64,000 nucleotides of DNA from Marinobacterium aestuarii (GTDB lineage Bacteria > Pseudomonadota > Gammaproteobacteria > Pseudomonadales > Balneatricaceae). The position numbers and the translations under genes are program-made. Position 1 is the stretch's first letter, and each line of letters begins with the position of its first letter. The notes below the pieces were generated by a model, which did not search any database, had not been told where the DNA came from, and saw only the letters and a program-made list of their open reading frames with translations. Location of the stretch: the NCBI RefSeq assembly GCF_001651805.1, contig NZ_CP015839.1, positions 806,001 to 870,000 on the forward strand, in the 5' to 3' direction. Of this stretch, positions 2,744 through 38,552 are shown piece by piece.

Positions 2744-2759
2744 TGGACCATGTGGTAAA
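2744..2759. promoter_or_regulatory. RutR-like operator in front of the tetR/rutR-like gene
   Basis: The sequence TGGACCATGTGGTAAA lies 41 bp before the TetR start. It matches 12 of 14 defined positions of the E. coli RutR box as I recall it (TTGACCA-NN-TGGTCAA) and shares the ACC-N4-GGT core with sites at 7143, 7176, 31868 and 31917. The position suggests autoregulation. Binding is an inference. Confidence 0.6.
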
Positions 2760-2800: not shown

Positions 2801-3460
2801 ATGACAGGGAACAGCACCCCAGCGGTCGAAGAGATCAAACCCAAGCGGCGTTCGCGCATCAGGGAAGCCCATGAAACCCGCATACTGGCAGCGGCGGAAG
2901 ACGTGTTTGCACAGTTCGGCTATAACGGTGCTTCGGTTGAAGCTATCGCCGAGCAGGCCGGGCTGTCGAAGCAGAACATGCTTTATTATTTTACCTCCAA
3001 GGAAATTCTCTATCGCCAGGTACTGAAGACGATTCTCGATCTGTGGCTCGAGAAAATGACGCTGCTGGAGCAGGCCGGTGAAGACCCCGCCGCCATGCTG
3101 GAAAACTACATTCGCGGCAAGTTTGAAATATCCCGCACCCACCCCAACGGCTCCAAGGTGTTTGCCAACGAGATCATCAATGGCGCGCCGCACCTGAAAG
3201 AATATCTGCGTGAGCGGCTGTTGCCCCAGCTTGAAGCCGATCTTGCCCTGGTAAGAGGCTGGATTGCCGATGGGATTGTCGATCCCATCGAACCTGAGCA
3301 TCTGTTTTTTACCATCTGGGCATCGACCCAGACCTATGCGGATTTCTCGGCGCAGATTGAGTTGTCGCTGGGCAAGGAGAGTCTGGAGGCGGATGATTTT
3401 ACGCGGGCGGGGGATTTTTTGACCCATGTGATTTTGAAGGGGATTGGGTTGAAGGGGTGA
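2801..3460 (+). CDS. TetR/AcrR-family regulator, RutR-like
   Basis: A 219-residue cytoplasmic repressor. The N-terminal HTH spans roughly residues 25-70 (ETRILAAAEDVFAQFGYNG, then GLSKQNMLYYFTSKEILY). The C-terminal half resembles RutR, the uracil/thymine-sensing regulator of pyrimidine use, including the late motif FFTIWASTQTYADFSAQIE. RutR in E. coli releases DNA when it binds pyrimidines. RutR-box-like palindromes lie upstream of this gene, of the F420 operon and of the NCS1/dihydropyrimidinase operon in this window, which fits a local pyrimidine regulon. It is transcribed alone and is followed by an intergenic repeat with a long hairpin. TetR membership is certain; RutR equivalence is likely, not proven. 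Confidence 0.85.
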   Translation: MTGNSTPAVEEIKPKRRSRIREAHETRILAAAEDVFAQFGYNGASVEAIAEQAGLSKQNMLYYFTSKEILYRQVLKTILDLWLEKMTLLEQAGEDPAAMLENYIRGKFEISRTHPNGSKVFANEIINGAPHLKEYLRERLLPQLEADLALVRGWIADGIVDPIEPEHLFFTIWASTQTYADFSAQIELSLGKESLEADDFTRAGDFLTHVILKGIGLKG

Positions 3461-7142: not shown

Positions 7143-7158
7143 TTGACCACTTGGCAAA
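7143..7158. promoter_or_regulatory. RutR-like operator 1 of the F420 operon
   Basis: TTGACCACTTGGCAAA has an exact left half (TTGACCA) and a near-exact right half of the RutR box. Its centre is 33 bp, about three helical turns, from operator 2, allowing cooperative binding on one face of the DNA. Confidence 0.6.
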
Positions 7159-7172
7159 AATTGATGTAGATT
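7143..7172 (+). promoter_or_regulatory. Candidate sigma-70 promoter of the F420 operon
   Basis: A TTGACC -35 box at 7143-7148 and a TAGATT -10 box at 7167-7172 are 18 bp apart. The first RutR-like operator overlaps the -35 box and the second covers the predicted start near 7179. The leader to cofG would be about 255 nt. This is read by eye. Confidence 0.45.
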
Positions 7173-7175
7173 AAA

Positions 7176-7191
7176 TTTACCGTTTGGTAAA
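7176..7191. promoter_or_regulatory. RutR-like operator 2 of the F420 operon
   Basis: TTTACCGTTTGGTAAA is a perfect palindrome with 6-bp arms around GTTT. It shares the ACC-N4-GGT core with the sites before the TetR gene and the NCS1 transporter, and overlaps the likely transcription start. Confidence 0.6.
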
Positions 7192-7354
7192 AAGTTGTTG
7201 TGCAGGCACAGCGACCTTTGACCGGAACAATGTTAGGAGCCTTTCGGGCTTAGCCGGTTGTAGCGAGGGAAAGGCCGTTTTGAGGCAGTTTTTGAACTTT
7301 TTTGAGGCGAATAGCGGGGCTATTTAACAAGAAAGAGTGCGAAAAATGACCAAA

Positions 7355-7396
7355 ATCGACTTTTCCGCAGTAGACCAGTGCTAAGTCCGACAGGCT
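7355..7396. repeat. Partial copy of a 52-bp hairpin repeat
   Basis: The segment from TTTTCCGCAGTAGACCAGTG to CCGACAGGCT matches the hairpins at 39535-39586 and 48838-48889, but the left arm (GCCTGTCGG) is missing, so it cannot fold. It lies in the leader of cofG. Confidence 0.6.
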
Positions 7397-7433
7397 CCAG
7401 GCCCCACCAAAAACAATAACGGAGGCTGTGATC

Positions 7434-8564
7434 ATGATGCTGACCCGCACACAGGCGCTGGCGCTGGAACAGGCGAGCGACGCAGAATTCAAGACCTTAG
7501 GTCTGCAGGCAGCCGCCGTGCGTGATACGCACTGGGGCCGGACTCTGACTTATTCACGCAAGGTTTTTGTACCCCTGACCAATATGTGCCGCGACGACTG
7601 CGGCTACTGCACCTTTGTTCAGAAACCCGGCTCCCCCAATGCCCGCGTCATGACGCCCGATGAAGTCATGGCCGTGGTGCACGAAGGTGAGCGCCTGGGC
7701 TGCAAGGAAGTGCTCTTTAGCCTCGGCGAGAAGCCCGAGTTGCGTTATCCACAGGCCCGGGAAGCACTGGCGCAGCTGGGGCACAGCAGCATGGTGGATT
7801 ACCTGGCGCAGATGTGTGAACGCGTGCTGGAGGAATCCAGCCTGCTGCCCCATGTGAATGCCGGCACCCTGTCGGACGAGGATATCCACAAGCTCAAGCC
7901 CGTCAGTGCCAGCATGGGCATGATGCTCGAGAACGTCAGCCGTCGCCTGATTCAGCGTGGCGAAGCTCACTATGCCTGCCCCGACAAGGTGCCAGTGCAG
8001 CGTATCCGTACCCTGGAGCGCGCCGGCGAGCAGGGCGTGCCTTTCACCACCGGCATTCTGATCGGTATTGGCGAGAACTGGGCCGAACGGGTCGACAGCC
8101 TTATCACCATCAATCATCTGCACCGCCGCTACGGCCATATTCAGGAAGTTATCGTACAGAACTTCCGTGCCAAGCCCGGTACCGCCATGGCGAATCATCC
8201 GGAACCGGATCTGAACGACATGGTGCGCACCCTGGTGCTGGCCCGCCTGCTGCTGGACCCGAGCATCAGCATACAGGCGCCGCCTAATCTGCAGCAGCGC
8301 TTCGGCGCCTATATAGCCGCGGGCATCAATGACTGGGGCGGCATTTCACCGCTTACGCTGGATCACATCAATCCGGAACGTGCCTGGCCGCAGATTGAAT
8401 CCCTGCGCAGCGCCACCGCGGACTGCGGTTACGGTCTGCAGGAGCGTCTGGCGGTGTACCCGCACTATCAGCAATACCCGGATCGCTTCTTCGCCGGCCC
8501 CATCGCCGCCCGCCTGGCTGGCATCGCCCGTGGCGATGGTCTGGCGCTGGCGCAATGTCATTGA
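7434..8564 (+). CDS. cofG: FO synthase subunit CofG (radical SAM)
   Basis: A 376-residue radical SAM enzyme that, with CofH, makes the deazaflavin FO (7,8-didemethyl-8-hydroxy-5-deazariboflavin), the chromophore of coenzyme F420, from tyrosine and a flavin-pathway pyrimidine. The iron-sulfur motif is MCRDDCGYC (Cys52, 56, 59). GGAGG at 7421-7425 sits 8 bp before the ATG at 7434, which I prefer to the GTG at 7428. It is the first gene of a tight operon in which cofG and cofH are separate proteins, not the fused FbiC of actinobacteria. The family call is firm. Confidence 0.96.
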   Translation: MMLTRTQALALEQASDAEFKTLGLQAAAVRDTHWGRTLTYSRKVFVPLTNMCRDDCGYCTFVQKPGSPNARVMTPDEVMAVVHEGERLGCKEVLFSLGEKPELRYPQAREALAQLGHSSMVDYLAQMCERVLEESSLLPHVNAGTLSDEDIHKLKPVSASMGMMLENVSRRLIQRGEAHYACPDKVPVQRIRTLERAGEQGVPFTTGILIGIGENWAERVDSLITINHLHRRYGHIQEVIVQNFRAKPGTAMANHPEPDLNDMVRTLVLARLLLDPSISIQAPPNLQQRFGAYIAAGINDWGGISPLTLDHINPERAWPQIESLRSATADCGYGLQERLAVYPHYQQYPDRFFAGPIAARLAGIARGDGLALAQCH

Positions 8565-8578
8565 ACAGGAGAAAAGCC

Positions 8579-9820
8579 ATGAATGCCGCTGTCCCCCACA
8601 AGATCGCGCTGGCACCTCGGGTGCCGCAGGAGCTTTTCAACCCGGCTGTGAGCACAGAAGTCCGTGCCATTTTGCAGCAGGCCCTGAACGGTGAGGAGCT
8701 GAGCGAAGCGCAAGGCGTGGTGCTCTTTGGCACCGAAGGCGCCGAGCTGGATGCGCTCACCGCCACCGCCGATGCCGTGCGCCGGCAGCGCGTTGGTGAT
8801 CGCGCCACCTTCGTGATTACGCGCAATATCAATTACACCAACGTTTGCTACATGGGCTGCAAGTTCTGCAACTTTGCCAAGCGCAAGGATGATCCCGAGG
8901 CCGAATTCTTCGATCTGGATGAAATCGTGCGCCGCGCCCAGGAAGCCTGGGACAGAGGCGCCACCGAGGTGTGCATTCAGGGCGGGTTGCACCCGGATCT
9001 GCCGGTGCATTTCTACCGCGACATGCTTAAGGCCATCAAGAGCGTGCTGCCTGGCATGCATATACACGCTTTCTCGCCGTTTGAAATCTGGTTTGGTGCC
9101 CGCAAGAGCAAGATGTCCTACGCCGATTTCATTCAGGACCTGATGGATCACGGCCTGGGCTCGATGCCGGGTACCGCCGCCGAGATTCTGGATACCGAGA
9201 TTCGCCAGCAGCTGACGAAGGACAAACTCACTACCGCGCAGTGGGTCGAGATTATCCAGACCGCCCATCGCCTGGGCCTGCCGACTACCGCCACCATCAT
9301 GTACGGCCATATCGATGGGCCTGAGCATTGGGCGGCACATCTGGCGCTGCTGCGTACCATCCAGCAGAAGACCGGCGGCTTTACCGAATTCGTGCCGCTG
9401 GGCTTTATCCACTACAAGACGCCGCTCTATCTGGAAGTGGCGGGCGTGCGCCCCGGCCCCACGCGACACGAGCATATCCGCATGCACGCCGTGGCGCGCC
9501 TGATGCTCAATGGCTGGATCGATAATATCCAGGCCTCTTGGGTCAAGCTTGGTACCGACCTTGCGCAGCAGATGCTGGCCGCCGGCGTCAATGACCTGGG
9601 CGGCACCCTGATGAACGAAAGCATCTCCCGTGCCGCCGGTGGCGAACATGGCCAGGAAATGCAGCCGCAGGAACTGATCGACATGATGCGTGCCATGGGC
9701 CGCGAACCGGTGCGGCGCAATACGCTCTACCGTCCGCTGGAAATTTTCGACCGCGCCGCTGCGTCTGATGCTGCGTTTGAAGCGCTGCCCCAGTCGCTGC
9801 TGGCCGGAGGCATGGCATGA
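8579..9820 (+). CDS. cofH: FO synthase subunit CofH (radical SAM)
   Basis: A 413-residue radical SAM protein that condenses a tyrosine-derived radical with 5-amino-6-ribitylaminouracil, giving the substrate for CofG. The cluster motif is VCYMGCKFCNF (Cys90, 94, 97), and the C-terminal part holds DLGGTLMNESISRAAGG, typical of CofH/MqnC relatives. AGGAG at 8567-8571 precedes the ATG at 8579 by 7 bp, so I use this start and not the ATG overlapping cofG. Its stop overlaps the start of cofD (ATGA), indicating translational coupling. Confidence 0.96.
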   Translation: MNAAVPHKIALAPRVPQELFNPAVSTEVRAILQQALNGEELSEAQGVVLFGTEGAELDALTATADAVRRQRVGDRATFVITRNINYTNVCYMGCKFCNFAKRKDDPEAEFFDLDEIVRRAQEAWDRGATEVCIQGGLHPDLPVHFYRDMLKAIKSVLPGMHIHAFSPFEIWFGARKSKMSYADFIQDLMDHGLGSMPGTAAEILDTEIRQQLTKDKLTTAQWVEIIQTAHRLGLPTTATIMYGHIDGPEHWAAHLALLRTIQQKTGGFTEFVPLGFIHYKTPLYLEVAGVRPGPTRHEHIRMHAVARLMLNGWIDNIQASWVKLGTDLAQQMLAAGVNDLGGTLMNESISRAAGGEHGQEMQPQELIDMMRAMGREPVRRNTLYRPLEIFDRAAASDAAFEALPQSLLAGGMA

Positions 9821-10812
9821 GTGCCCAGGCGCCGAAAATCACCCTGCTGGCCGGCGGTGGCGGTGGCGCCAAACTGGCCATAGGGCTTGCCGCGATACTG
9901 CAGCCCGGTCAGCTGTCGATCATCGGCAACGTGGCGGATGATCAGGAATTCCATGGCCTCTGGGTCTCGCCGGATATAGATACCATCACTTATAGCCTGG
10001 CCGGGCTGATTGACCGCAGCAAGGGCTGGGGGCTGGCGAATGAAACCAGCCGCACCCTGGAAGGCCTGGCCCGCCTGGGATCCGATGACTGGATGTACCT
10101 GGGGGACCAGGACTTCGCCACTCATATCTATCGCACCGAACTGCGCCGCCAGGGTGTGCGCCCGAGCGCCATTGCCCAGACCATCGCCCGCGCGCTGGGA
10201 GTAACGGCCAATATATTGCTGCCCAGTGATGACCGCATGCAGACCGAGGTCAAAACCGCCCGCGGCTGGCTGTCGTTCCAGGAGTACTTTGTGCGCGAAC
10301 AGTGCCGCCCCGAGGTGCTGGAGCTGCGAATTCAGGGGCTGGAGGAGGCACGCCCAACCGAAGAGGCGCTGGCGGCCATCCGCGATGCGGACCTGCTGAT
10401 TCTTGCGCCCAGCAATCCCCTGGTGAGCATAGGTCCGATCCTGGCGCTGCCGGCTATCCGCAATGCGCTGGAGAAGACCCGCGCAACCCGGGTTGCGGTA
10501 TCGCCACTGATCGGCGGCCAGACGGTGAAGGGGCCTGCGAACCGCATGCTCAAGGCGGCGGGTTACAGCTGCAGCAACCTGGGCGTGGCCGACTGTTACC
10601 GCGGTCTGATCGATAGCCTGGTAATTGATGTCAGTGATAGCGCCGACGTGGCGGCCTTGCAGGCGCGCGGGCTCAAGACGCTGGTGACCCAGACACTGAT
10701 GAGCAGCGATGCCGACAAGGCATGCCTGGCCCGAGAACTGCTGGCCATCGCTGGATTGGCCGGAACTGGACTGGCGTCGCAACTGGATCAGCCTGAGCGG
10801 GTGTCGGCATGA
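9817..10812 (+). CDS. cofD: 2-phospho-L-lactate (or analogue) transferase CofD
   Basis: This 331-residue enzyme transfers the phospho-acid moiety from the guanylylated donor made by CofC onto FO, giving F420-0 or a dehydro or glyceryl variant. Family features are the glycine-rich start (LLAGGGGGAKLAIGL, residues 10-24), GNVADDQEFHGLWVSPDIDT, and the conserved LLILAPSNPLVSIGPIL in the second half. It overlaps cofH and cofC by 4 bases each (ATGA), so the three are co-translated. Length and motifs match the CofD/FbiA family. Confidence 0.96.
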   Translation: MSAQAPKITLLAGGGGGAKLAIGLAAILQPGQLSIIGNVADDQEFHGLWVSPDIDTITYSLAGLIDRSKGWGLANETSRTLEGLARLGSDDWMYLGDQDFATHIYRTELRRQGVRPSAIAQTIARALGVTANILLPSDDRMQTEVKTARGWLSFQEYFVREQCRPEVLELRIQGLEEARPTEEALAAIRDADLLILAPSNPLVSIGPILALPAIRNALEKTRATRVAVSPLIGGQTVKGPANRMLKAAGYSCSNLGVADCYRGLIDSLVIDVSDSADVAALQARGLKTLVTQTLMSSDADKACLARELLAIAGLAGTGLASQLDQPERVSA

Positions 10813-11450
10813 GCCTGAAAACCCTGATCGTGATCCCGGTGAAGGATTTCGCCAGTGCCAAGTCGCGCCTGCGTCCGGTGTTGGGCGATACAGACCGCAG
10901 CCAGTTGGCCCGGCGCCTGTGCGAACGCACCCTGAGCTTTTTTGGCACGCATTTTCCGGATTATCCACTGCTGGTGGTCACGGCTTCTGCCGCCATCGGT
11001 GAACTGGCCCGCGGCTACGGTGCTTCTGTGCTGCGCGAGCTGCGCCCGGCGGGGCTGTCGGGGGCGGCGGCACTGGCGGCACACTGGAGCAAAAAGCACG
11101 GCTTTGATTCCCAGTTGCTGGTGCCGGCGGATATAGCACGGCTTGATGCCGACGAGTTTCGCACTCTGCTGTGCCAGCCAAGACCTGCGCCCTCGGTGCT
11201 GATCTGCCCGGCCAGTGACGCCGGCACTAATGCACTGCTGACCACGCCGCCGGATGTGGTGCCCTTTTGCTTTGGCCCGAATTCCAGCGCAGCGCATCAG
11301 GGGGCGGCACTCAAGCGGTCGGTGCCCTGTGAGCTGCTGCACTTTGATCATATGCGTTTCGATCTGGATACCCCGGATGATCTTCACAGCCTGATGCATC
11401 AACACAGCGGCGATCTGCCGCGGGAACTGGTGACCCTATGGAATCTGTAA
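10809..11450 (+). CDS. cofC: Phospholactate guanylyltransferase CofC
   Basis: A 213-residue nucleotidyltransferase that activates a three-carbon phospho-acid (2-phospholactate, phosphoenolpyruvate or 3-phosphoglycerate, depending on lineage) with GTP for CofD. The N-terminal IPVKDFASAKSRL holds the nucleotide-binding signature, and LLVPADIARL the metal-binding region. Which phospho-acid it uses cannot be read reliably; in some proteobacteria 3-phosphoglycerate is used. It overlaps cofD by 4 bp and cofE by 13 bp. Confidence 0.93.
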   Translation: MSLKTLIVIPVKDFASAKSRLRPVLGDTDRSQLARRLCERTLSFFGTHFPDYPLLVVTASAAIGELARGYGASVLRELRPAGLSGAAALAAHWSKKHGFDSQLLVPADIARLDADEFRTLLCQPRPAPSVLICPASDAGTNALLTTPPDVVPFCFGPNSSAAHQGAALKRSVPCELLHFDHMRFDLDTPDDLHSLMHQHSGDLPRELVTLWNL

Positions 11451-12316
11451 TACAGAACAATACAGCACAAGGCATGGCGTTCAGCGCTGCCCCGACTGAC
11501 CCCGCTGTGGTGCACCGTGCCGCCAGGGCGGCCCGCCCTGCGGCCAGTACCCGCATTGCCATGCAGGTACTGCCGGGTATTCCGGACATAGCGCCGGGGG
11601 ATGATCTGGCCGCGCTGCTGCTCGAATCCATCGAGCGGGCGGCGCTTAGCCTGCAGGACGGCGACATCCTGGTGATCGCCCACAAGGTGGTCTCCAAGGC
11701 CGAAGGCCGGATCACGCGCCTGGCCGATGTGGTACCGGGGGAGAAAGCACGCCAGCTTGGGCTGGAGCTGAACAAGGATCCGCGCAAGGTCGAAGTAATT
11801 CTGGGGGAATCCAGCCGTGTGGTGCGGGCCATCAAGCGCCCCGGCCAGCTCGAAGGCACCCTGATCGCCGAGCATCGGCTGGGCTTTATCTGCGCCAATG
11901 CCGCGGTGGATGAATCCAATGTCGGCGCCGAGGAAACCGTCATCCTGCTGCCGGAAGATCCGGACCGCAGCGCCCGGGAAATCTGCGCGCTGCTGGAGCG
12001 TGCCAGCGGTGTGCGTCTGGGCGTGGTGATTACCGATACCTTCGGACGGCCCTGGCGCATGGGGCTGGTGAATGTGGCGGTGGGGCTTGCCAAGGTGCCG
12101 AGCCAGATCGATCTGGTGGGCGAGCGCGATGCCTTCGGGCGCGAGCTTTCGGTCACGGTACCGGCCCTGGCCGATGAGCTCGCGGCGGCCTCGGGTCTCT
12201 TGATGAGCAAGGATGGCAAGACCCCGGCGATTCTGTTCCGCGGCATCGACTGGACCCCGGACAACAGCTCTGCGCGTGACCTGGTGCGTCCGCAACAGGA
12301 AGACCTGTTTCGCTAA
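11438..12316 (+). CDS. cofE: Coenzyme F420-0:L-glutamate ligase CofE
   Basis: A 292-residue GTP-dependent ligase that adds gamma-linked glutamates to F420-0. Landmarks are [41 protein letters not shown] and [13 protein letters not shown]. Compared with the usual family start it has about 41 extra N-terminal residues; Met42 is an alternative start but lacks a ribosome site. There is no C-terminal nitroreductase domain of the FbiB type, which in mycobacteria reduces dehydro-F420. That argues for a donor not needing reduction, or for a reductase elsewhere. Confidence 0.95.
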
Positions 12317-12422
12317 ACCCTGCGGGCCCCAAGGGCCTGGTGGGTCGCAACGACTGCTGCTTGAAACGAAAAAGCTCAACCGACAGCAATTTGAACCAAC
12401 AAGAACAAGAGGAAAGGTTTCG

Positions 12423-13094
12423 ATGAAAATCTCAATTCTGGGTGGTACAGGTCCGCAGGGCCGGGGTCTGGCACTGCGTTTTGCCCGTGCGGGTATAGAG
12501 GTCGCAATTGGCTCGCGTGAGGCGGCCCGTGCGGCAGATGCAGCCACAGAGCTTGGCGCTCTGCTGAACCCCGCGGCAGCTGCGATCAGCGGTCATGATA
12601 TTCGCGCCGCGGTGGCGCAGGCCGATGAACTGGTGATTCTGGCGGTGCCTTACAGCGCCCATGATGCCACGCTTGAGTCCATCAAGGATCTGCTGGTGGG
12701 CAAGGTACTGATCGATATCGCCGTGCCTCTGGCCCAGGGCGATCCCAAGCGCGTGGCCATGCCGGCGGCGGGTTCCGCCACTGAAGCGGCCCAGGCGCTG
12801 CTGGGGGAGAGCATCCCGGTGGTGGGCGCGCTGCATAACGTATCGGCCACGGTACTGAATGATCTGGAGCACAGCATCAACTGCGATGTGCTGGTGTGCG
12901 GCAATGATCTGGCGGCCAAGGAAAAGGTGATCGAGCTGATCCGCAAGCTGGATGTGGCCGCCTACAACTGCGGCCCGGCCGAGAGCGCCCGCTGCATCGA
13001 GGCCATCACACCCATTCTTATCCGTTTGAATATTTCCAAGAAGGTGCCCTTTACCCACGCCGGTATTCGTATCTGCCCACCCGACGCTCATTAA
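12423..13094 (+). CDS. npdG: F420:NADP oxidoreductase (Fno/NpdG)
   Basis: A 223-residue cytoplasmic enzyme that passes hydride between NADPH and F420. The N-terminal Rossmann motif is [17 protein letters not shown], with GSREAA after the second strand, typical for the 2'-phosphate of NADP. The C-terminal part includes [10 protein letters not shown] and [17 protein letters not shown], family-typical. AGAGGAAAGG lies before ATG 12423. It sits between the F420 synthesis genes and the F420-dependent oxidoreductase. In an aerobe lacking F420-reducing hydrogenase it would most likely run from NADPH to F420. Confidence 0.93.
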
Positions 13095-13130
13095 TTTTTT
13101 CAATAAAAACAAAGACCCAGGAGAGTGACT

Positions 13131-14135
13131 ATGGAATTTGGTATCTGCTTTAAAGGTTTTGTCAGCCACGATCGCGCCCGCACACTGGTGAAACAGGCCG
13201 AGGACGCCGGCTTTGACTACTGCTGGTTCTACGACTCCCATATCCTGTGGCGCGAATGCTACCCGGCCATCGCCATGTGCATGGAGCATACCTCGCGCAT
13301 CAAGTTCGCCCCCTGCGTCACCAACCCCAATGCCCGTGACTGGTCGCTGGCAGCCAGCCTCTTTGGCAGCCTGGCCAAGCAGAGCGGAGGCCGCTTTGAA
13401 GTGGGTCTGGGGCGCGGCGACAGCTCGGTGCGCGTGATGGGCAAGAAACCCGCGACTCTGGCCCGCGTGGCCGAGTTCACCACCAAGGTGAAAGCCATGG
13501 TGCGTGGTGAGGAAGTCATGTACGGCGAATGCCCGGAGCCGGTGCAGTTCCCCTGGGCTGAAGGCTACGAGCTGCCAGTCTATATAGGTGCTTACGGCCC
13601 CATGGCGCTGAAAACCGCAGGAGAGGTGGGTGATGGCGTGATTCTGCAGATCGGTGAACCCGCGCTGATCAAGTGGCTGGCGGACCAGGCCATCGCTGCC
13701 GGCGTCGAGGCCGGTCGTGATATGTCCAACTTCAAGATCATCGCTGCAGCGCCGGCTTATTTCGGCGACCGGGAGAGCTGTGTTGAGTCCACCAAGTGGT
13801 TCCCGGCCATGGTGGGTAACCATGTGGCCGATATCGTTGAGAAGTACGGTACCGACAGTGGCCTGGTGCCCAAGAGCCTGACCGACTATATCGAGAAGCG
13901 CAAAGGCTACGACTATTCCAAGCATGGCCAGAGTGATAACCCTTACCTGGATTTCATCACGCCAGAAATTGTTGAAAGTTTCTGCGTACTGGGTGAGGCC
14001 GAGCAGCATATCGTCAAGCTGAACCATTTGAAGGAAGCGGGCACCACCCAGTTCAATATCTATCTGGATAACGGTGACGAGGAAAATATTATCGCCCAGT
14101 ACGGCGAACATATTATCCCGCATTTCAAAGGTTAA
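13131..14135 (+). CDS. F420-dependent luciferase-like oxidoreductase
   Basis: A 334-residue TIM-barrel protein of the luciferase-like monooxygenase superfamily, close to methylenetetrahydromethanopterin reductase (Mer). Visible are MEFGICFKGF, the DSHILWRECYP region, FEVGLGRGDSSVRVMG and PVYIGAYGPMALKTAGEVGDGVIL. I recall a family of this type (TIGR03842, CPS_4043-like) described as often the sole F420 enzyme of its kind in proteobacteria, function unknown. AGGAG at 13119-13123 supports ATG 13131. The gene follows npdG by 36 bp and precedes a carbamoyl-amidohydrolase. Its genomic company suggests reduction of a pyrimidine ring (uracil to dihydrouracil); this is inference. Confidence 0.88.
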   Translation: MEFGICFKGFVSHDRARTLVKQAEDAGFDYCWFYDSHILWRECYPAIAMCMEHTSRIKFAPCVTNPNARDWSLAASLFGSLAKQSGGRFEVGLGRGDSSVRVMGKKPATLARVAEFTTKVKAMVRGEEVMYGECPEPVQFPWAEGYELPVYIGAYGPMALKTAGEVGDGVILQIGEPALIKWLADQAIAAGVEAGRDMSNFKIIAAAPAYFGDRESCVESTKWFPAMVGNHVADIVEKYGTDSGLVPKSLTDYIEKRKGYDYSKHGQSDNPYLDFITPEIVESFCVLGEAEQHIVKLNHLKEAGTTQFNIYLDNGDEENIIAQYGEHIIPHFKG

Positions 14136-14204
14136 TATTTGATTTGTAAAAAGTCGTATTAAATCGTCAGGTTGATAATAACTGCGATCCTTGATGTTGC
14201 TAGC

Positions 14205-14231
14205 GGGGCACTGTGTTGCCCCCCTTGTTTT
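14205..14231 (+). terminator. Rho-independent terminator after the F420 operon
   Basis: GGGGCA-CTGTGT-TGCCCC forms a 6-bp stem followed by CCTTGTTTT. It lies between the LLM oxidoreductase and the carbamoyl hydrolase, so the latter may have its own promoter or depend on read-through. Confidence 0.55.
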
Positions 14232-14301
14232 CGCTGCACCTGCTGAGCCTTGCGGGTGTGGAATGTTCAGAATTGACAGAGCTGAGTGAGAGAGTCTAAT
14301 C

Positions 14302-15534
14302 ATGCAGAAGATTACCGTTAATCAGCAGCGCCTGTGGGACAGCCTGATGCAGATGGGCGAGATCGGCGGCACCGAAAAAGGCGGCGTCTGCCGTCTGGCG
14401 CTGACGGATCTGGACAAGCAGGGCCGTGATCTGTTTGTCAGCTGGTGCAAGGACGCCGGCTGCAGCATCCGCATCGACAAAATGGGCAATATCTTCGCCC
14501 GTCGCCCAGGTCAGGACGACTCCCTGCCGCCGGTGGTTATGGGCAGCCATCTGGATACCCAGCCCACGGGGGGCAAGTTCGATGGTATCTACGGCGTGCT
14601 GTCGGGGCTGGAAGTGATTCGCAGCCTGAACGATCAGGGCATTGAGACCCGCGCGCCCATCGAGGCCTCGGTCTGGACCAACGAGGAAGGTTCACGCTTC
14701 CCGCCGGCCATGGTGGCATCCGGTGTTTTCGCCGGTGTCTTCGATCTGGAGTACGGCCTTAGCCGGGCGGATCTGGATGGCAAGACCATGGGCGAGGAAC
14801 TGGAACGCATTGGTTATGCTGGTCCCGAAGAAGTGGGTGGTCGTCCTTTCAAGGCCTTCTTCGAGGCCCATATCGAACAGGGCCCGATTCTGGAGGATGA
14901 AGACAAGCAGATCGGCGTGGTGACCGATGCCCAGGGGCAGCGCTGGTATGAGGTCACCCTGACCGGGCAAGAGTCCCACGCCGGTCCCACGCCCATGACA
15001 AGGCGCCGTGACGCTCTGGTAGGAGCTGCACGCCTGATCGATACGGTGAACCGCATCGGCATGGATCACCAGCCCAACGCCTGCGCCACCGTGGGCCTGG
15101 TGCAGGTGTTCCCGAATTCGCGCAACGTGATTCCGGGCCAGGTGTTCTTTACCGTGGACTTCCGTCACCCGGATGCCGAGGTGCTGGCCAAGATGGATCA
15201 GGAGCTGCGCGAAATTGCGGATCGGGTGTCTGGCGAGCTGGGACTTGAAATGAAGTTCGAGCAGATCTGGTACTCGCCGCCGGTGCCCTTCGATACCGCC
15301 TGCGTAAACTCCGTGCGCCAGGCGGCTGAAGAGTTCGGCTACAGCCACCGCGATATCGTCAGCGGTGCCGGCCACGATGCCTGCTATATCTCCCGTGTAG
15401 CCCCGACCGCCATGGTCTTCGTGCCCTGTGAAAACGGCATCAGCCACAACGAGGCGGAAAATGCCAAGGCGGAAGACCTGGCCGCCGGCTGCAACGTACT
15501 GCTGCAGGCGGTACTGGAGCGCGCCAACGACTGA
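14302..15534 (+). CDS. N-carbamoyl-beta-alanine / N-carbamoyl-amino acid amidohydrolase (M20)
   Basis: A 410-residue zinc or manganese amidase of peptidase family M20, hydrolysing N-carbamoyl-beta-alanine (third step of reductive pyrimidine breakdown) or N-carbamoyl-L-amino acids. Metal ligands are visible: GSHLDTQ (His83), GKFDGIYG (Asp94), TNEEGSRF (Glu128/129) and EAHIEQGP. The dimerisation lid motif GQESHAGPTPM is present. The length is normal. Being next to the F420 oxidoreductase, with dihydropyrimidinase and an NCS1 transporter elsewhere in the window, favours the beta-ureidopropionase role (PydC-like), but hydantoin-derived carbamoyl amino acids cannot be excluded. Confidence 0.9.
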   Translation: MQKITVNQQRLWDSLMQMGEIGGTEKGGVCRLALTDLDKQGRDLFVSWCKDAGCSIRIDKMGNIFARRPGQDDSLPPVVMGSHLDTQPTGGKFDGIYGVLSGLEVIRSLNDQGIETRAPIEASVWTNEEGSRFPPAMVASGVFAGVFDLEYGLSRADLDGKTMGEELERIGYAGPEEVGGRPFKAFFEAHIEQGPILEDEDKQIGVVTDAQGQRWYEVTLTGQESHAGPTPMTRRRDALVGAARLIDTVNRIGMDHQPNACATVGLVQVFPNSRNVIPGQVFFTVDFRHPDAEVLAKMDQELREIADRVSGELGLEMKFEQIWYSPPVPFDTACVNSVRQAAEEFGYSHRDIVSGAGHDACYISRVAPTAMVFVPCENGISHNEAENAKAEDLAAGCNVLLQAVLERAND

Positions 15535-15864: not shown

Positions 15865-17034
15865 ATGAAATTATCTGTACTCAGGGATTTGTACCCCGGT
15901 GAACGGCGCGTTGCGCTGACGCCGGCCAATGTTGCGGCGCTCTGTGCCCGTGGCTGCGAGCTTAGGGTTGAGTCTGGCGCAGGCGTAGAGGCCGGCTTTG
16001 CCGATGCGCTCTATGTTGATGCCGGTGCCGCCATAGTGGCGTCGCGGGGCGAGGCGATCGCCGGCAGTGAAGTGCTGCTGTGCGTGAATGCCAGCCGCGA
16101 TGCGGATCTCGACGGCCTCAGTGCCGGTCAGCTGTGCATTGCGCTGATGGATCCGCTGAGCGATAGCGCGCGCTTCGAAGCCCTGGCCGAGCGTGGACTG
16201 TCGTTGCTGGCGCTGGAGCTGGTGCCGCGCATCAGCCGCGCCCAGAGCATGGATGTGCTGTCGTCCATCGCCACCATCGCGGGATACAAGGCTGTATTGA
16301 TGGCAGCCGAAGCGGCGCCGCGCATCTTCCCGATGATGATGACCGCCGCCGGCACTTTGAATCCGGCCCGCGTCTTTATTATGGGCGCCGGTGTTGCCGG
16401 CCTGCAGGCGGCGGCCACGGCCAAGCGCCTGGGCGCCGTGGTGGAAGCCTATGATGTGCGCCCGGCGGCCCGGGAGCAGATTATTTCCGTCGGTGCACGG
16501 CCCATAGAGCTGGACCTGCCAACGGATGCGGCCGAAGGCCAGGGCGGTTATGCCGCCGAACAGGGGACGGACTTCCTGGCGCGCCAGCGCGAGCAGATGA
16601 CCGCCGTACTGGCACAGCAGGACATCGTCATTACCACGGCCGCGATCCCCGGCAGCCGTGCACCTGTGCTGATCAGCGCCGAGATGGTGGCGGCGATGAA
16701 GCCAGGCGCCGTGATCGTGGATCTGGCGGCGGAGCGCGGTGGTAACTGCGAGCTGACCCGGGCCGGTGAAACACAGCAAGTGCATGGGATTACCCTGATG
16801 GGGCCGCTGAATCTGGCGGCCAGCGTGCCCATGCATGCCAGCCAGATGCACGGCCGCAATATCGAAAATCTGTTGCTGCACCTGCTGGACAAGGACGCGC
16901 GCCTGCAGCTGGATTTTGACGATGAAATCGTTGCCGACACCCTGGTGACCCACCAGGGCGAGATCTGTGCCGGGCGTATTCGTGAACGCCTGGGCCTGGG
17001 CCTGGGTGTACGGGTGCTGGAGGAGGTGGCCTGA
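15865..17034 (+). CDS. pntAA: NAD(P) transhydrogenase subunit alpha part 1 (PntAA)
   Basis: This 389-residue soluble NAD(H)-binding domain I belongs to the proton-translocating transhydrogenase, which makes NADPH from NADH using the proton gradient. Motifs are LYPGERRVALTP at the N-terminus, IMGAGVAGLQAAATAKRLGA (Rossmann), VEAYDVRPAAREQ and GAVIVDLAAERGGNCE. The alpha subunit is split into two genes here, as in Rhodospirillum, and not fused as in E. coli. AGGAG lies 7-8 bp before the ATG. Its stop overlaps pntAB. Confidence 0.95.
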   Translation: MKLSVLRDLYPGERRVALTPANVAALCARGCELRVESGAGVEAGFADALYVDAGAAIVASRGEAIAGSEVLLCVNASRDADLDGLSAGQLCIALMDPLSDSARFEALAERGLSLLALELVPRISRAQSMDVLSSIATIAGYKAVLMAAEAAPRIFPMMMTAAGTLNPARVFIMGAGVAGLQAAATAKRLGAVVEAYDVRPAAREQIISVGARPIELDLPTDAAEGQGGYAAEQGTDFLARQREQMTAVLAQQDIVITTAAIPGSRAPVLISAEMVAAMKPGAVIVDLAAERGGNCELTRAGETQQVHGITLMGPLNLAASVPMHASQMHGRNIENLLLHLLDKDARLQLDFDDEIVADTLVTHQGEICAGRIRERLGLGLGVRVLEEVA

Positions 17035-17375
17035 TGGAAATCCTGATACTGCAAATTTCACTTTTCGTGCTGGCGGTGTTTCTGGGCGTCGAGCTCATCA
17101 CCAAGGTGCCTGCGACCTTGCACACCCCCTTGATGTCCGGCAGCAATGCCATTTCCGGTATCACCCTGGTGGGTGCGCTGCTGGCAGCGGGCGCAGGCGA
17201 TGGCAACGGTCTTTGGGTCCCTGTACTTGGGATGATCGCCGTGACTCTGGCGACGATAAACGTCGTGGGCGGGTTCCTCGTAACTAACCGAATGCTGCGG
17301 ATGTTCCAGCCCCGCAAGGTATCCACCCCCACTACAGCCAAGGGAGGCGTGAGTCATGAATCTGTTCCTGGTTGA
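17034..17375 (+). CDS. pntAB: NAD(P) transhydrogenase subunit alpha part 2 (PntAB)
   Basis: A 113-residue membrane subunit with about three hydrophobic helices (residues 2-20, 36-53, 60-85), contributing part of domain II, the proton channel. TKVPATLHTPLMSGSNAISG is a family signature. The start overlaps the pntAA stop by one base, and the 3' end overlaps pntB by 20 bp, so all three are translationally coupled. Confidence 0.93.
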   Translation: MEILILQISLFVLAVFLGVELITKVPATLHTPLMSGSNAISGITLVGALLAAGAGDGNGLWVPVLGMIAVTLATINVVGGFLVTNRMLRMFQPRKVSTPTTAKGGVSHESVPG

Positions 17376-18750
17376 TGGTTTCTATCTGCTGGCAGCCATG
17401 CTGTTCGTCGGCGGCATCAAGGGGCTGACCCGGCCGCGCACCGCCGTGCGCGGCAACCAGATGGCCGCCATCGGCATGCTGGTGGCGGTGTTGGTCACCC
17501 TGCTGGACAAATCTATTCTGTCCTATGAGTGGATACTGGGTGGCGTGATTCTGGGCTCGCTTATCGGCACCCTGCTGGCGACCCGTATCCAGATGACGGC
17601 GATGCCGCAGATGGTGGCGCTGCTCAACGGCTTTGGTGGCGGAGCCTCCCTCTGTGTGGCGGCGGCAAGCTTTCTGGGCCTGGCGGGAGCCGATGGCCCC
17701 CTGGGGCTGGTGGCTCTGGTGGCCATCTGCATCACGCTGCTGATCGGTGCCGTGACCCTGACGGGCAGTGCAGTGGCCTTTGCCAAACTGCAGGAGCTGC
17801 TGCCGGGTCGGCCACTGGGATTTCGGGGCATCCGTGGCTTTAATCTGGTGCTCTTTGTGGCCGTGCTGGCGCTGGCGGGCTCACTGATCAGCGGCAGCGG
17901 TGACAGCAGTACGCTGATACTGCTCACTGTGCTGGCGCTGGTGCTGGGGGTCACTTTGGTGATGCCCATTGGCGGCGCCGACATGCCGGTGGTGATCGCC
18001 CTGCTGAATTCCTATTCGGGGCTGGCGGCAGCGGCTGCCGGCTTCATTATGGGCAACAGCGTGCTGGTGGTATCCGGCGCTCTGGTGGGGGCGTCGGGCA
18101 TTATCCTGACCCGCATCATGTGCGTGGCCATGAACCGCTCGCTCAGCGGTGTGCTGTTCGGCTCCATGGGAGAGGCCGGCGGACCTGTGATGGATGCCGA
18201 TGAAGTCTATGCCGGCAAGGTGAAGTCGTCTTCGCCGGAGGAGGTGAGCATGCTGCTCGAGAGCGCCCGCCGGGTGGTGATAGTGCCGGGCTTTGGTCTG
18301 GCGATGGCCCAGGCGCAGCACGCGGTGCGCGACCTTGCCGACTCGCTGGAACGTCGCGGCATTGAAGTGATCTACGGCCTGCATCCGGTGGCGGGGCGCA
18401 TGCCTGGTCACATGAATGTACTGCTGGCCGAAGCCGAGGTGCCCTACGACAAGATGCAGTCCATGGAGGAGGTCAATGCGCTGTTCGAGCAGACGGATGT
18501 GGCCATAGTGATCGGTGCCAATGACGTCACCAACCCCATGGCGCGGGAGGACAAGGGCAGTCCTATCTACGGCATGCCGATCCTGAACGTCGACAAGGCG
18601 CGCACCGTGGTGGTGGTCAAGCGCAGCCTGAGCCCGGGCTTTGCAGGCCTGCCCAACCCGCTGTTTGCCAGGGACAACTGCCTGATGCTGTTTGGCGATG
18701 GCAAGAAAGCCATCATGGAGCTGACGGCGGCGGTGAACGAAACGGTTTGA
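17356..18750 (+). CDS. pntB: NAD(P) transhydrogenase subunit beta (PntB)
   Basis: A 464-residue subunit: an N-terminal membrane domain with eight to nine helices (residues 1-260), then the NADP(H)-binding domain III. Signatures include ALLNGFGGGASL, VIALLNSYSGLAAAAAGF, VPGFGLAMAQAQHAVRDL, GLHPVAGRMPGHMNVLLAEA, GANDVTNP and SLSPGFAGLPNPLF. Sitting just after the F420/Fno genes, it could supply NADPH for reducing F420, but it is also a general redox-balancing system. Confidence 0.95.
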   Translation: MNLFLVDGFYLLAAMLFVGGIKGLTRPRTAVRGNQMAAIGMLVAVLVTLLDKSILSYEWILGGVILGSLIGTLLATRIQMTAMPQMVALLNGFGGGASLCVAAASFLGLAGADGPLGLVALVAICITLLIGAVTLTGSAVAFAKLQELLPGRPLGFRGIRGFNLVLFVAVLALAGSLISGSGDSSTLILLTVLALVLGVTLVMPIGGADMPVVIALLNSYSGLAAAAAGFIMGNSVLVVSGALVGASGIILTRIMCVAMNRSLSGVLFGSMGEAGGPVMDADEVYAGKVKSSSPEEVSMLLESARRVVIVPGFGLAMAQAQHAVRDLADSLERRGIEVIYGLHPVAGRMPGHMNVLLAEAEVPYDKMQSMEEVNALFEQTDVAIVIGANDVTNPMAREDKGSPIYGMPILNVDKARTVVVVKRSLSPGFAGLPNPLFARDNCLMLFGDGKKAIMELTAAVNETV

Positions 18751-23229: not shown

Positions 23230-23272
23230 AAGTGGCCGGCGCATGCCTGCGCCCTGCCACGGGGAGAACATG

Positions 23273-25710: not shown

Positions 25711-25714
25711 TGAT

Positions 25715-28451: not shown

Positions 28452-31504
<3,053 letters not shown>

Positions 31505-31867: not shown

Positions 31868-31883
31868 TTTACCTTTTGGTCAA
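31868..31883. promoter_or_regulatory. RutR-like operator A of the NCS1/dihydropyrimidinase operon
   Basis: TTTACCTTTTGGTCAA matches 12 of 14 defined RutR-box positions as recalled. It overlaps the end of the -10 box and the expected start of the leftward promoter, a classical repressor position. Confidence 0.62.
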
Positions 31884-31916: not shown

Positions 31917-31932
31917 TTTTCCAAAAGGTCAA
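31917..31932. promoter_or_regulatory. RutR-like operator B of the NCS1/dihydropyrimidinase operon
   Basis: TTTTCCAAAAGGTCAA has an exact right half-site (GGTCAA) and a weaker left half, with 11 of 14 positions matching. It lies just upstream of the -35 box and 49 bp centre-to-centre from operator A. It may also act on the rightward MocA-like gene. Confidence 0.5.
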
Positions 31933-34573: not shown

Positions 34574-35506
34574 TTAGGCCTGGGCGGCTTCTGCCTGTAT
34601 CAGTAGATCCAGTTCTTCCAGATAACTTTCCAGCACTAGATTCGAGGGTGCGCCCTTGCGAGTGATGGCGCTGTACTGGGTGATATAGCGGTATTGCGTC
34701 GGATTCAATGCCCGCATCAGACCTTCACCTATCCAGCGCTCGGCGTAGTGGGTTGGCAGAAAACCAATGTACTGGCCGGTGAGAATCAGAAAGGCGATGC
34801 CTTCGCGATCGGTGGCAGAGGCTGCGGCCTTGAGGGGCTCGTGCAGGGTTTTAACCTGGGCGGTCTGGGCGTAGGCGGGCAGTACGGCGTCGCAGGCCGC
34901 CAGCTGTTTGGCGCTGATGCCGGTTGCATCGAAAAGTCTGTGCTGATGGCTGCAGTAGAGCAGCGACTCTTCTTCGTACAGCAGGCGGTAATGCAGCCCC
35001 GGCAGCGTTTTCAGCGCCGGGATCACCCCGGTGTGCAGGCGCCCGTCCAGTACTCCAAGCTCGATCTCGGTGGGGGGGATCATGCGGATATTGATGCGAA
35101 TGTCGCCGCGCTTTTTCAGGGCATTGAGGGCGTTGGTGATATGCATCTGCGGCATGGTGACCAGGTTATCGGTGATGCCTATATTCAGCTCCCCCTTGAG
35201 CTGGGCGTGCAGGCCATTGACCCGGGTACGAAAACCTTCGATCGCCGCCAGCAGTTGCAGCGTGGCCTCGTATACCTCGGCGCCTTCTTCCGTCAGGGCA
35301 AAGCCGCTGCGCCCGCGCTGACACAGCCGCAGTGCCAGGCGACTTTCAAGATCATTCATGGCAATGCTGATGGCCGCCCGGCTGATATTCAGCTCCACCT
35401 CTGCCGCCGAAAAACCGCCGCACTCCACCACCTTGCGATAGATGCGCAGCAGGCGCAGGTCGGTATCACTCAGCTGGCCGGGCAGGACGGGCTTGCGGGT
35501 TTTCAT
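34574..35506 (-). CDS. LysR-family transcriptional regulator
   Basis: A 310-residue regulator with an N-terminal winged HTH (residues about 14-75, including GGFSAAEVELNISRAAISIAMNDLE) and a periplasmic-binding-like effector domain. GAGGAA precedes ATG 35506. It is divergent from the beta-alanine transaminase and semialdehyde dehydrogenase genes, with a perfect 12-bp palindrome between them, so it most likely controls them. The effector may be beta-alanine or another omega-amino acid, which is inference. Confidence 0.9.
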   Translation of the reverse strand: MKTRKPVLPGQLSDTDLRLLRIYRKVVECGGFSAAEVELNISRAAISIAMNDLESRLALRLCQRGRSGFALTEEGAEVYEATLQLLAAIEGFRTRVNGLHAQLKGELNIGITDNLVTMPQMHITNALNALKKRGDIRINIRMIPPTEIELGVLDGRLHTGVIPALKTLPGLHYRLLYEEESLLYCSHQHRLFDATGISAKQLAACDAVLPAYAQTAQVKTLHEPLKAAASATDREGIAFLILTGQYIGFLPTHYAERWIGEGLMRALNPTQYRYITQYSAITRKGAPSNLVLESYLEELDLLIQAEAAQA

Positions 35507-35566
35507 GGTGCAGTTCCTCAGCACGGGGGACAGCTAGCAGGATAAAACAAAGCGCCGGTTTAAGTT

Positions 35567-35578: not shown

Positions 35579-35686
35579 GTGTGAAGGTTAATACGTTTGG
35601 GTTTAATTTACATTGGAGCTTGGGCACACTCGATTCATACCGAGTCACCTAACCTTTATCGCCATATGAATAACAAGGGGTATGCC

Positions 35687-37030
35687 ATGTCTGAGTCGCA
35701 GCACGATAAAACCGCCGGCCTGAGTCCCGAGCAGCTGGATGCGTTCTGGATGCCGTACACCGCCAACCGCCAGTTCAAGGCTGACCCGCGCATTATCGTT
35801 GGCGCCGAGGGTGCCTACTACAAGACCGCCGATGGCCGTCGCATCTTCGATGGTCTGTCGGGTCTGTGGACCTGCGGTGCCGGCCACAACAGGCCCGAAA
35901 TCGCCGAGGCGGTGTCTAAACAGCTGCGCGAGCTAGACTATGCACCGGCGTTTCAGTATGGCCACCCCAAGGCTTTCGAGCTGGCTCATCGTATTCGTGA
36001 ACTGACGCCCAAAGGGCTGGATTACGTCTTCTTTACCGGCTCCGGCTCCGAAAGCGCCGATACCTCGCTGAAGATTGCCCGCGCTTACTGGCGCAAGAAA
36101 GGCAAGCCCTCCAAGATCAAGCTCATCGGTCGCGCCAAGGGCTATCACGGCGTCAACTTTGGTGGTTTCAGCGTTGGTGGCATAGGGGCCAACCGGGCGC
36201 TCTTCGGCCAGGGCGTGGATGCCGACCATCTGCCCCATACCCTGCTGAAAGAGAATCTGTTCAGCCGCGGCATGCCGGAAAAAGGTGCAGAACGTGCCGA
36301 TGAGCTGCTGGAGCTGATCGCGCTGCACGATGCCTCCAATATAGCGGCGGTGATCGTCGAGCCAATGGCCGGGTCTGCCGGTGTGCTGCCGCCGCCAGTG
36401 GGCTACCTGAAACGCCTGCGGGAAATCTGCGATGCGCACGACATTCTGCTGATCTTTGATGAAGTCATCACCGGCTTTGGCCGCATGGGCTCCATGACCG
36501 GTGCCGAAGAATTCGGTGTGGTGCCGGACATGATGAACGTCGCCAAGCAGCTGACCAACGGCGCTGTCCCCATGGGGGCGGTGGTCGCCAAGACCGAGAT
36601 TTACCAGACCTTCATGGAGCAGGGTGGGGCGGACTACATGATGGAGCTGCCCCACGGCTACACTTACTCCGGTCATCCGGTGGGCTGTGCCGCGGCCCTG
36701 GCATCGCTGGACGTGCTGCAGAATGACAACCTGATCGACCGGGTGAAGGAAATGAGCCCGATCTTTGAAAACGCGCTGCACAGCCTCAAAGGCACGCGCT
36801 ATATCAGTGATATTCGCAACTACGGCCTGGCCGGTGCGTTGCAGATTGAATCCTACCCGGGCGAGCCTGCGCGGCGGCCTTATGAAATTGCCATGAAATG
36901 CTGGGAAAAAGGTTTTTACGTGCGCTACGGCGGCGACACCATCCAGCTGGGGATGCCCTTTATCGTCGAGCGCGAAGAGATTGACCGGGTGATCAATGCC
37001 CTGGGCGACGCCTTCGCCGAACTCGACTAA
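35687..37030 (+). CDS. Beta-alanine:pyruvate (omega-amino acid) transaminase
   Basis: A 447-residue class III PLP aminotransferase that converts beta-alanine and pyruvate to malonate semialdehyde and alanine. Motifs: FDGLSGLWTCGAGHNRPEI, YHGVNFGGFSVGG, LLIFDEVITGFGRMG (PLP-binding Asp) and NVAKQLTNGAVPMGAVV with the Schiff-base Lys. AAGGGG precedes ATG 35687. It is 31 bp ahead of the semialdehyde dehydrogenase, the classic pair for beta-alanine breakdown, which is the end product of reductive uracil degradation. Other omega-amines are possible substrates. Confidence 0.92.
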   Translation: MSESQHDKTAGLSPEQLDAFWMPYTANRQFKADPRIIVGAEGAYYKTADGRRIFDGLSGLWTCGAGHNRPEIAEAVSKQLRELDYAPAFQYGHPKAFELAHRIRELTPKGLDYVFFTGSGSESADTSLKIARAYWRKKGKPSKIKLIGRAKGYHGVNFGGFSVGGIGANRALFGQGVDADHLPHTLLKENLFSRGMPEKGAERADELLELIALHDASNIAAVIVEPMAGSAGVLPPPVGYLKRLREICDAHDILLIFDEVITGFGRMGSMTGAEEFGVVPDMMNVAKQLTNGAVPMGAVVAKTEIYQTFMEQGGADYMMELPHGYTYSGHPVGCAAALASLDVLQNDNLIDRVKEMSPIFENALHSLKGTRYISDIRNYGLAGALQIESYPGEPARRPYEIAMKCWEKGFYVRYGGDTIQLGMPFIVEREEIDRVINALGDAFAELD

Positions 37031-37061
37031 ACGACTACCACACCTTTATAGAGGCAAGCGC

Positions 37062-38552
<1,491 letters not shown>

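Follow-up and report, generated by a model that had tools for sequence, protein, structure and literature searches.

Known pyrimidine-degrading systems and the Marinobacterium locus

The closest described counterpart of the system reported here is the Pyd pathway, in which an NAD(P)H-dependent PydA or PreTA is followed by dihydropyrimidinase, beta-ureidopropionase, beta-alanine transaminase, and a semialdehyde dehydrogenase. These later enzymes are also encoded in a 64,000-nucleotide stretch of the genome of Marinobacterium aestuarii (contig NZ_CP015839.1, C1:806001-870000; "the window" below means this whole stretch), together with the genes for F420 biosynthesis and a predicted luciferase-like F420 oxidoreductase (LLM) of the family TIGR03842. 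Comparisons of sequences and gene neighborhoods indicate that this is very probably a Pyd system in which PreTA/PydA has been replaced by an unrelated, F420-dependent LLM, and in which uracil would induce the F420 operon.

Whereas PreTA carries flavin mononucleotide (FMN), flavin adenine dinucleotide (FAD), and iron–sulphur cofactors, a single-domain LLM with F420 is proposed here, and the gene set additionally includes cofGHDCE and npdG. The ferredoxin-dependent PydAc of Clostridium chromiireducens is a precedent for a Pyd variant with an altered electron donor; however, PydAc is still a PydA homologue (PMC7332683), whereas the enzyme considered here is non-homologous and its proposed donor is F420H2. 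The F420-dependent methylenetetrahydromethanopterin reductase (Mer) belongs to the same LLM class and is the closest solved relative in both sequence and fold, with 25-28% identity in the fold comparison. The Rut system of Escherichia coli (RutA/RutR) shares with the locus a RutR-type regulator with retained uracil contacts and a similar operator, but in the M. aestuarii genome no RutA exceeds the cut-off, ring opening is proposed to be reductive, and the regulator scores below the RutR cut-off.

Two further proteins are comparable by their described reactions. For NpsU/SSGG-03002, a putative F420/FMN enzyme, genetic and nuclear magnetic resonance evidence was presented for reduction of the uracil C5=C6 bond in uridyl-peptide antibiotics (PMC10714638); this enzyme serves antibiotic tailoring, not catabolism. 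In Chloroflexota, a putative F420-dependent yanthine reductase of a reductive purine pathway was proposed from its gene neighborhood (PMC12507026), which is a similar swap with another substrate and in another phylum. Our literature search, which left subscription journals mostly uncovered, returned no paper in which the catabolism of uracil or other pyrimidines depends on F420 at any step, although one may exist in print.

Gene content and the missing first enzyme

Genes were called from open reading frames (ORFs) and curated NCBIfam and Pfam models with the cut-offs of those models (Table 1). The host genome is 5.19 Mb in one contig and 100% complete. An earlier note on this DNA, made from its letters alone, had described a full F420 operon, an F420:NADP oxidoreductase (NpdG), and an LLM followed by a carbamoylase. 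All of these genes were intact with scores above the cut-offs, and CofG, CofH, CofD, CofC, and CofE together make up a complete F420 biosynthesis operon. The dihydropyrimidinase and NCS1 importer that the note placed at 28452-31504 were also present, the NCS1 protein passing the Pfam cut-off and falling below the NCBIfam ncs1 cut-off (TIGR00800, 319 vs 353 bits), with Mhp1 among its relatives, as were the beta-alanine transaminase and the malonate-semialdehyde dehydrogenase, here placed at 35597-38552 (AptA, 724 bits; MMSDH, 676 bits). Dihydropyrimidinase, carbamoylase, transaminase, and semialdehyde dehydrogenase, the later enzymes of the Pyd pathway, are therefore all encoded in the window, and their exact substrates would be those of that pathway. 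The nearest solved structures of the dihydropyrimidinase are the D-hydantoinase/dihydropyrimidinase entries 5e5c and 5ykd (814 bits), and the solved relatives of the M20 carbamoylase include N-carbamoyl-beta-alanine amidohydrolase 8c46 and beta-alanine synthase 1r3n. The genome also contains a second dihydropyrimidinase (G000:C1:4070034-4071398, locus L117; PRK13404 type, 820 bits), which is 41% identical to the window copy and has no tested pathway gene within the 18 kb around it.

The note had seen no PreT/PreA-like enzyme and had named in advance a PreTA or Rut pathway elsewhere in the genome as evidence that would overturn its reading. The search was extended to the complete genome and was negative: the PreA model had no match at its cut-off (PreT had no separate search), and RutA had no match at E <= 1e-40 (RutA cut-off 498 bits). 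The sole DHO_dh protein above the Pfam cut-off is the quinone-dependent PyrD. The only Bac_luciferase protein besides the LLM was considered as a RutA and rejected, as it belongs to the MsnO8 family (TIGR03558, 339 bits). The idea that PreA was overlooked was also rejected, as the equivalog model detects PreA in 10 of 369 genomes of the class and in two control genomes. Because no PydA/PreTA was found in this genome, the window system is a variant of the Pyd pathway and not a standard member.

Conservation of the LLM neighborhood

To define related loci, genome_contigs was scanned with a three-sequence alignment, and the best 80 of 257 confirmed relatives were kept, more distant ones being unseen. 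The window LLM and its Marinobacterium profundum counterpart share 99% identity. Neighboring genes were labelled with the window proteins as references (>=40% identity) in flanks of up to 10 kb on each side, and dihydropyrimidinase, carbamoylase, NCS1, transaminase, and MMSDH were counted as pathway genes. At least one pathway gene lay in the flank at 76 of the 80 loci and at least two at 63, with 32 of 34 genus-level labels represented (labels were taken from record names, each kind of metagenome-assembled genome, MAG, being one label); this recurrence makes chance adjacency unlikely. NpdG was encoded in the flank at 75 loci, mostly directly upstream of the LLM, and the transaminase and MMSDH were each found at 17, one of the MMSDH matches being merely 30% identical. 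CofD and dihydropyrimidinase genes were at most 30 kb apart in 41 of the 51 genomes that had both (median, 10.4 kb).

Gene order varied by lineage. The carbamoylase gene lies 3' of the LLM gene in Halomonas, Halopseudomonas, and some Marinobacterium, an NCS1-carbamoylase pair is divergent from cofG in Marinomonas and some Oceanospirillum, a transaminase-MMSDH pair is divergent in Alteromonas and Thalassolituus, and the dihydropyrimidinase gene is upstream of cofG in Colwellia. In Leisingera, genes for NCS1, HydA, a Zn hydrolase, the transaminase, and PntBA are divergent from cofGHDCE-npdG-LLM.

Other genes and partial copies were observed around the LLM. In five loci (L060 at 11127-11732, with 249 bits, L062, L066, L067, and L074), a gene for GTP cyclohydrolase II (RibA) is located 3' of the LLM gene, and it may boost the supply of ribityldiaminouracil, a precursor of F420. 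In Leisingera, a DUF1330 protein gene adjoins NCS1 where the cluster ends (L089, 193-486); in Paracoccus, such a gene is next to cofG (L090, 9083-9373). On a Caballeronia plasmid (L092, 12001-13696), a match to 38% of the LLM stands beside genes for a carbamoylase and a transhydrogenase beta subunit and may represent a degenerate version of the system. A Rhodococcus plasmid (L126) encodes a protein 30% identical to the LLM and an FbiC-like CofH match, with no tested pyrimidine-pathway gene there.

Co-occurrence and exchange with PreTA

The co-occurrence of LLM, dihydropyrimidinase, and cof genes, a check that the earlier note had proposed, was followed in 52 LLM genomes: those of 49 of the 80 loci plus the M. 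aestuarii genome, G295, and G509 (L056 and a further 30 loci, the latter mainly Marinomonas and MAGs, lay outside this set). Dihydropyrimidinase was present in 51 and CofD in 52 (above the cut-off in 51), which agrees with the proposed association. The single genome without dihydropyrimidinase (G778, locus L060) is represented by a sequence that ends at a contig end just past pntB; the related locus L062 continues past that position into NCS1 and dihydropyrimidinase. RutA above the cut-off was found in none of the 52 genomes, that of M. aestuarii included. The FDOR family PF04075 occurred in just three, so rival F420 users of that family are few.

PreA was distributed very differently. Of 369 evenly drawn Gammaproteobacteria genomes, 16 had dihydropyrimidinase, and these comprised 10 with PreA, two with the LLM, none with both, and four with neither; the sample had no PreA or LLM genome outside these 16. 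Among genomes with dihydropyrimidinase, PreA was present in 3 of 51 with the LLM vs 10 of 14 without it (Fisher p = 1.3e-6, uncorrected for kinship). The LLM was found in only two of the 369 genomes and in two of a phylum sample of 398, with M. aestuarii one of the two each time, and the system is therefore rare. G789 (Motiliproteus, L096) encodes a PreA-like protein scoring 219 bits against a cut-off of 335, possibly another ring reductase. G265 and G093 have dihydropyrimidinase and CofD and match neither PreA nor TIGR03842 (the CofD of G093 is partial at a contig end); they may contain another F420-linked variant or assembly gaps.

The two first enzymes also exchange places beside the same partners. 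In five PreTA loci (L120-L122, L131, and L132), genes for a carbamoylase and dihydropyrimidinase, with NCS1 in two of the five, adjoin PreTA as they do the LLM elsewhere. Two species of one genus carry the alternatives: G190 has the order PreT-PreA-carbamoylase-dihydropyrimidinase, and in G295 a dihydropyrimidinase-carbamoylase pair adjoins cofG and a partial cofH where one contig begins, and LLM-npdG-cofE-cofC-cofD-cofH reaches the end of another contig. PreTA and the LLM thus appear to have been swapped within one genus next to the same partner genes, which supports replacement of the one by the other.

It could be argued that the LLM performs an unrelated task within the F420 operon and that its pyrimidine neighbors are coincidental, given the frequent position of npdG just upstream of the LLM gene (in the flank of 75 of the 80 loci) and the variation of the adjoining catabolic genes between lineages. 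We consider this hitch-hiking very improbable. The linkage persists where the cof genes are elsewhere: L034 has the order NCS1-dihydropyrimidinase-LLM-carbamoylase, and L036 and L079 resemble it; in these three genomes, cof and npdG share 28-51% identity with the window genes. It also persists in Streptomyces, in which a plasmid (L091) carries a dihydropyrimidinase gene (554 bits) directly upstream of a TIGR03842 LLM gene (590 bits). Moreover, among dihydropyrimidinase genomes PreA is rare with the LLM and common without it, and a RutR-type operator precedes the cof operon itself, as described below.

The LLM protein

The window LLM passes the TIGR03842 cut-off of 295.45 bits, as do the proteins of L091 (590 bits), L034 (505), L079 (498), and L089 (507). 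Its best solved relative by sequence is the F420-dependent Mer (E about 1e-34), which was also the nearest fold of its structural model (pLDDT 85; TM 0.79, 27% identity). Because the nearest structures are F420-dependent and CofD was found in all 52 LLM genomes, the LLM probably uses F420 as its cofactor. At about 223-265 lies a stretch with many invariant residues, which is also kept in the Streptomyces protein; two short segments of it (about 249-253 and 257-261) are unmatched in the alignment with Mer. This stretch is a candidate substrate site. TIGR03842, which in NCBIfam is only a hypothetical equivalog, thereby likely gains a function.

RutA is a member of the same superfamily as the LLM. 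Together with the RutR-like regulator, this membership could suggest that the LLM works like RutA, as an FMN-dependent monooxygenase opening uracil by oxidation, and that F420 has some other role. We give this explanation hardly any credence, as the LLM is nearest to the F420-dependent Mer, its gene partners are dihydropyrimidinase and carbamoylase, npdG is directly upstream, CofD occurs in 52 of 52 LLM genomes, and other F420 enzymes of PF04075 in just three. The candidate identification of the LLM as a RutA homologue was rejected, the protein scoring 499 bits with TIGR03842 and the RutA cut-off being reached in 0 of 52 genomes.

A RutR-like regulator and operator-like sites

The most frequent unlabelled cluster near the LLM was a TetR protein, found at 70 of the 80 loci, and in a set of 84 loci (the 80 plus L089, L118, L119, and L125) a RutR-like gene was present at 73. 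RutR (TIGR03613) was the best model for all eight members scanned and for the window protein, and the best solved relatives of the regulator are RutR structures. The uracil contacts of RutR are W77, Y97, W167, Q171, and Q179 (PMC10891134). In 74 regulator homologues, W77 was kept in 72, Y97 in 73, and W167, Q171, and Q179 in all 74.

Operator-like sites were scored over 14 positions against TTGACCA-NN-TGGTCAA, which we take to be the RutR consensus; the gap between rutA and rutR of E. coli contains a site scoring 11/14. A palindrome of about 16 bp is described for RutR in PMC10891134, the excerpted text of which does not contain the string TTGAC. In the window, 15 matches with at most three mismatches were found vs 2.2 expected, several of them inside genes. 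A box of at least 12/14 preceded cofG, or cofH where cofG was unlabelled, at 44 of 76 loci vs 3 of 1520 shuffles, and cofG alone at 39 of 69 vs 0 of 345, whereas the intra-operon controls gave 0/80 for the LLM, 0/76 for cofD, and 1/77 for cofE. With a narrower pattern, the M. aestuarii genome has five exact places, of which three lie in the window before cofG and the NCS1-dihydropyrimidinase operon, a share that is partly circular, as the pattern was shaped after the window sites had been seen. The fourth, previously unseen, lies between genes upstream of a cytosine deaminase/permease pair, at a distance of about 530 bp from where the deaminase begins. Boxes of at least 13/14 were also found in three of the five PreTA loci (L120, L121, and L131); L122 has no such box and L132 only a 12/14 site within a gene.

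The RutR-like gene, the operators, and pntAB (15865-18750), found here in the window, are absent from the earlier account. The F420 operon itself appears to be part of a uracil regulon, and with the regulatory evidence the replacement of PreTA by the LLM is better supported than when first proposed.

The same evidence bears on the possibility that the LLM reduces some other ring that the same hydrolases could open, such as hydantoin or the purine-derived yanthine. Judging by the names of the matched families and structures, hydantoins and allantoin are likewise handled within the families of the dihydropyrimidinase, the M20 carbamoylase, and the NCS1 importer, and a hydantoin-only pathway was accordingly not dropped but carried as an alternative. 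We judge another ring to be unlikely: AptA and MMSDH, each near the LLM at 17 of 80 loci, suit beta-alanine and beta-aminoisobutyrate, the regulator retains the RutR uracil contacts, operator-like sites of at least 13/14 occur in three of five PreTA loci, and an exact site stands before the cytosine deaminase/permease pair.

Proposed pathway and points against it

In the proposed pathway, the NCS1 carrier would bring the pyrimidine base into the cell, and NpdG would make F420H2 from NADPH, for which the PntAB transhydrogenase is the probable source. The LLM would transfer a hydride from F420H2 to uracil or thymine at C5=C6, yielding the dihydropyrimidine, which dihydropyrimidinase and the M20 beta-ureidopropionase would convert to beta-alanine or beta-aminoisobutyrate, CO2, and NH3. 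AptA and MMSDH would complete the route to acetyl-CoA or propionyl-CoA. A uracil-binding RutR-like repressor would control both the NCS1-dihydropyrimidinase operon and the F420 biosynthesis operon, so that F420 would be made when its substrate is present. The earlier note had, from this one genome, ascribed uracil and thymine reduction to the LLM with F420H2 from NpdG; linkage, co-occurrence, exchange with PreTA, and regulation all argue for this assignment, and from them we infer the reaction itself and its reductive direction.

Several observations weigh against F420-dependent uracil reduction by the LLM. No residue of the LLM could be linked to uracil, and the comparable NpsU/SSGG-03002 yielded no product in vitro (PMC10714638). 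In 3 of the 52 genomes (G777, G788, and G795), PreA above the cut-off occurs as well as the LLM, each adjoined by a separate dihydropyrimidinase, so that the LLM is not invariably the sole route, and two LLM genomes have a RutA-like protein far below the cut-off (157 and 161 vs 498 bits). PreA is rare in the class overall (10/369), and its absence is therefore informative only among genomes with dihydropyrimidinase. The sampled loci are related to each other and derive mostly from marine Gammaproteobacteria; L030, L038, and L085 have no pathway gene in the flank, L039 has only a 30%-identical dehydrogenase, and a Paracoccus alcaliphilus plasmid has cof-npdG-LLM with no annotated pathway gene within 15 kb.

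On the regulatory side, the RutR-like proteins score well below the equivalog cut-off of 368 bits (154-235 bits, n = 8; window, 200). Operators of at least 12/14 are patchy outside cofG: carbamoylase, 16/69 (shuffles, 1/345); NCS1, 4/45 (0/225); dihydropyrimidinase, 2/22 (1/110); the rutR-like gene, 12/74 (2/370); transaminase, 0/17; and MMSDH, 1/16. The fifth exact place in the M. aestuarii genome lies inside a TRAP receptor gene, and once one mismatch is allowed, the match count of this genome is level with that of the control (66 vs 65).

Features of the window

The positions of the genes and sites are collected in Table 1. At 20022-26431, the window also contains a tryptophan 2,3-dioxygenase-like gene (172 bits, cut-off 391) beside cytochrome c oxidase genes.

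Table 1. Genes and operator-like sites of the locus, with positions in the window; sites were scored against the assumed RutR consensus
Feature	Position	Strand	Basis
RutR-type operator before rutR-like gene	2744..2759	+	12/14
RutR-like TetR regulator	2801..3457	+	tblastn, 95% to L008; TIGR03613, 200 bits (cut-off 368)
RutR-type operator 1 before cofG	7143..7158	+	At most 3 mismatches to consensus; first base is the start of the region in the earlier note
RutR-type operator 2 before cofG	7176..7191	+	3 mismatches to consensus
cofG, FO synthase subunit	7428..8564	+	TIGR03550, 472 bits
cofH, FO synthase subunit	8555..9820	+	TIGR03551, 514 bits
cofD	9817..10812	+	TIGR01819, 292 bits
cofC	10809..11450	+	TIGR03552, 134.5 bits
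cofE	11438..12316	+	TIGR01916, 256.5 bits
npdG, NADPH-dependent F420 reductase	12423..13094	+	TIGR01915, 197 bits, above cut-off
LLM, proposed F420-dependent uracil/thymine reductase	13125..14135	+	TIGR03842, 499 bits; alternative ATG 13131
M20 carbamoylase, proposed beta-ureidopropionase (PydC)	14302..15534	+	TIGR01879, 445 bits, above cut-off
pntAa, NAD(P) transhydrogenase subunit; probable source of NADPH	15865..17034	+	ORF; 41% to annotated Leisingera transhydrogenase; near LLM at 18/80 loci
pntAb	17034..17375	+	ORF; near LLM at 17/80 loci
pntB	17356..18750	+	ORF; 42% to annotated Leisingera subunit; near LLM at 17/80 loci
Dihydropyrimidinase (PydB)	28452..29927	-	TIGR02033, 614 bits (cut-off 393)
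NCS1 importer, nucleobase/hydantoin type	30002..31504	-	PF02133, 306 bits, well above Pfam cut-off
RutR-type operator before NCS1-dihydropyrimidinase operon	31868..31883	+	At most 3 mismatches to consensus
Weaker second operator-like site	31917..31932	+	3 mismatches
LysR regulator, divergent from transaminase	34574..35524	-	Pfam
Class III omega-aminotransferase AptA, proposed beta-alanine transaminase (PydD)	35597..37030	+	NF052567, 724 bits
CoA-acylating (methyl)malonate-semialdehyde dehydrogenase (MMSDH)	36996..38552	+	TIGR01722, 676 bits

Implications for F420 in Proteobacteria

A 2021 review of F420 lists the purpose of this cofactor in Proteobacteria and Chloroflexi as an unanswered question and mentions trace F420 in some Alphaproteobacteria (PMC8498797). 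For these Proteobacteria, the locus offers an answer that is specific and can be tested. We lean towards the view that, across a broad range of marine Proteobacteria, F420 is dedicated to catabolism: a uracil-sensing repressor would govern its entire biosynthesis, and the cofactor would be used almost solely by the TIGR03842 enzyme to reduce uracil and thymine. If this is true, the trace F420 of some Alphaproteobacteria (PMC8498797) would reflect a missing inducer, and the Streptomyces plasmid pair would extend the route to Actinobacteria, where F420 already has other uses. In a textbook catabolic step, a non-homologous enzyme that uses a different electron carrier has apparently replaced the usual one, and the proposed regulation predicts that the synthesis of a redox cofactor would be induced by the substrate that it serves to reduce.

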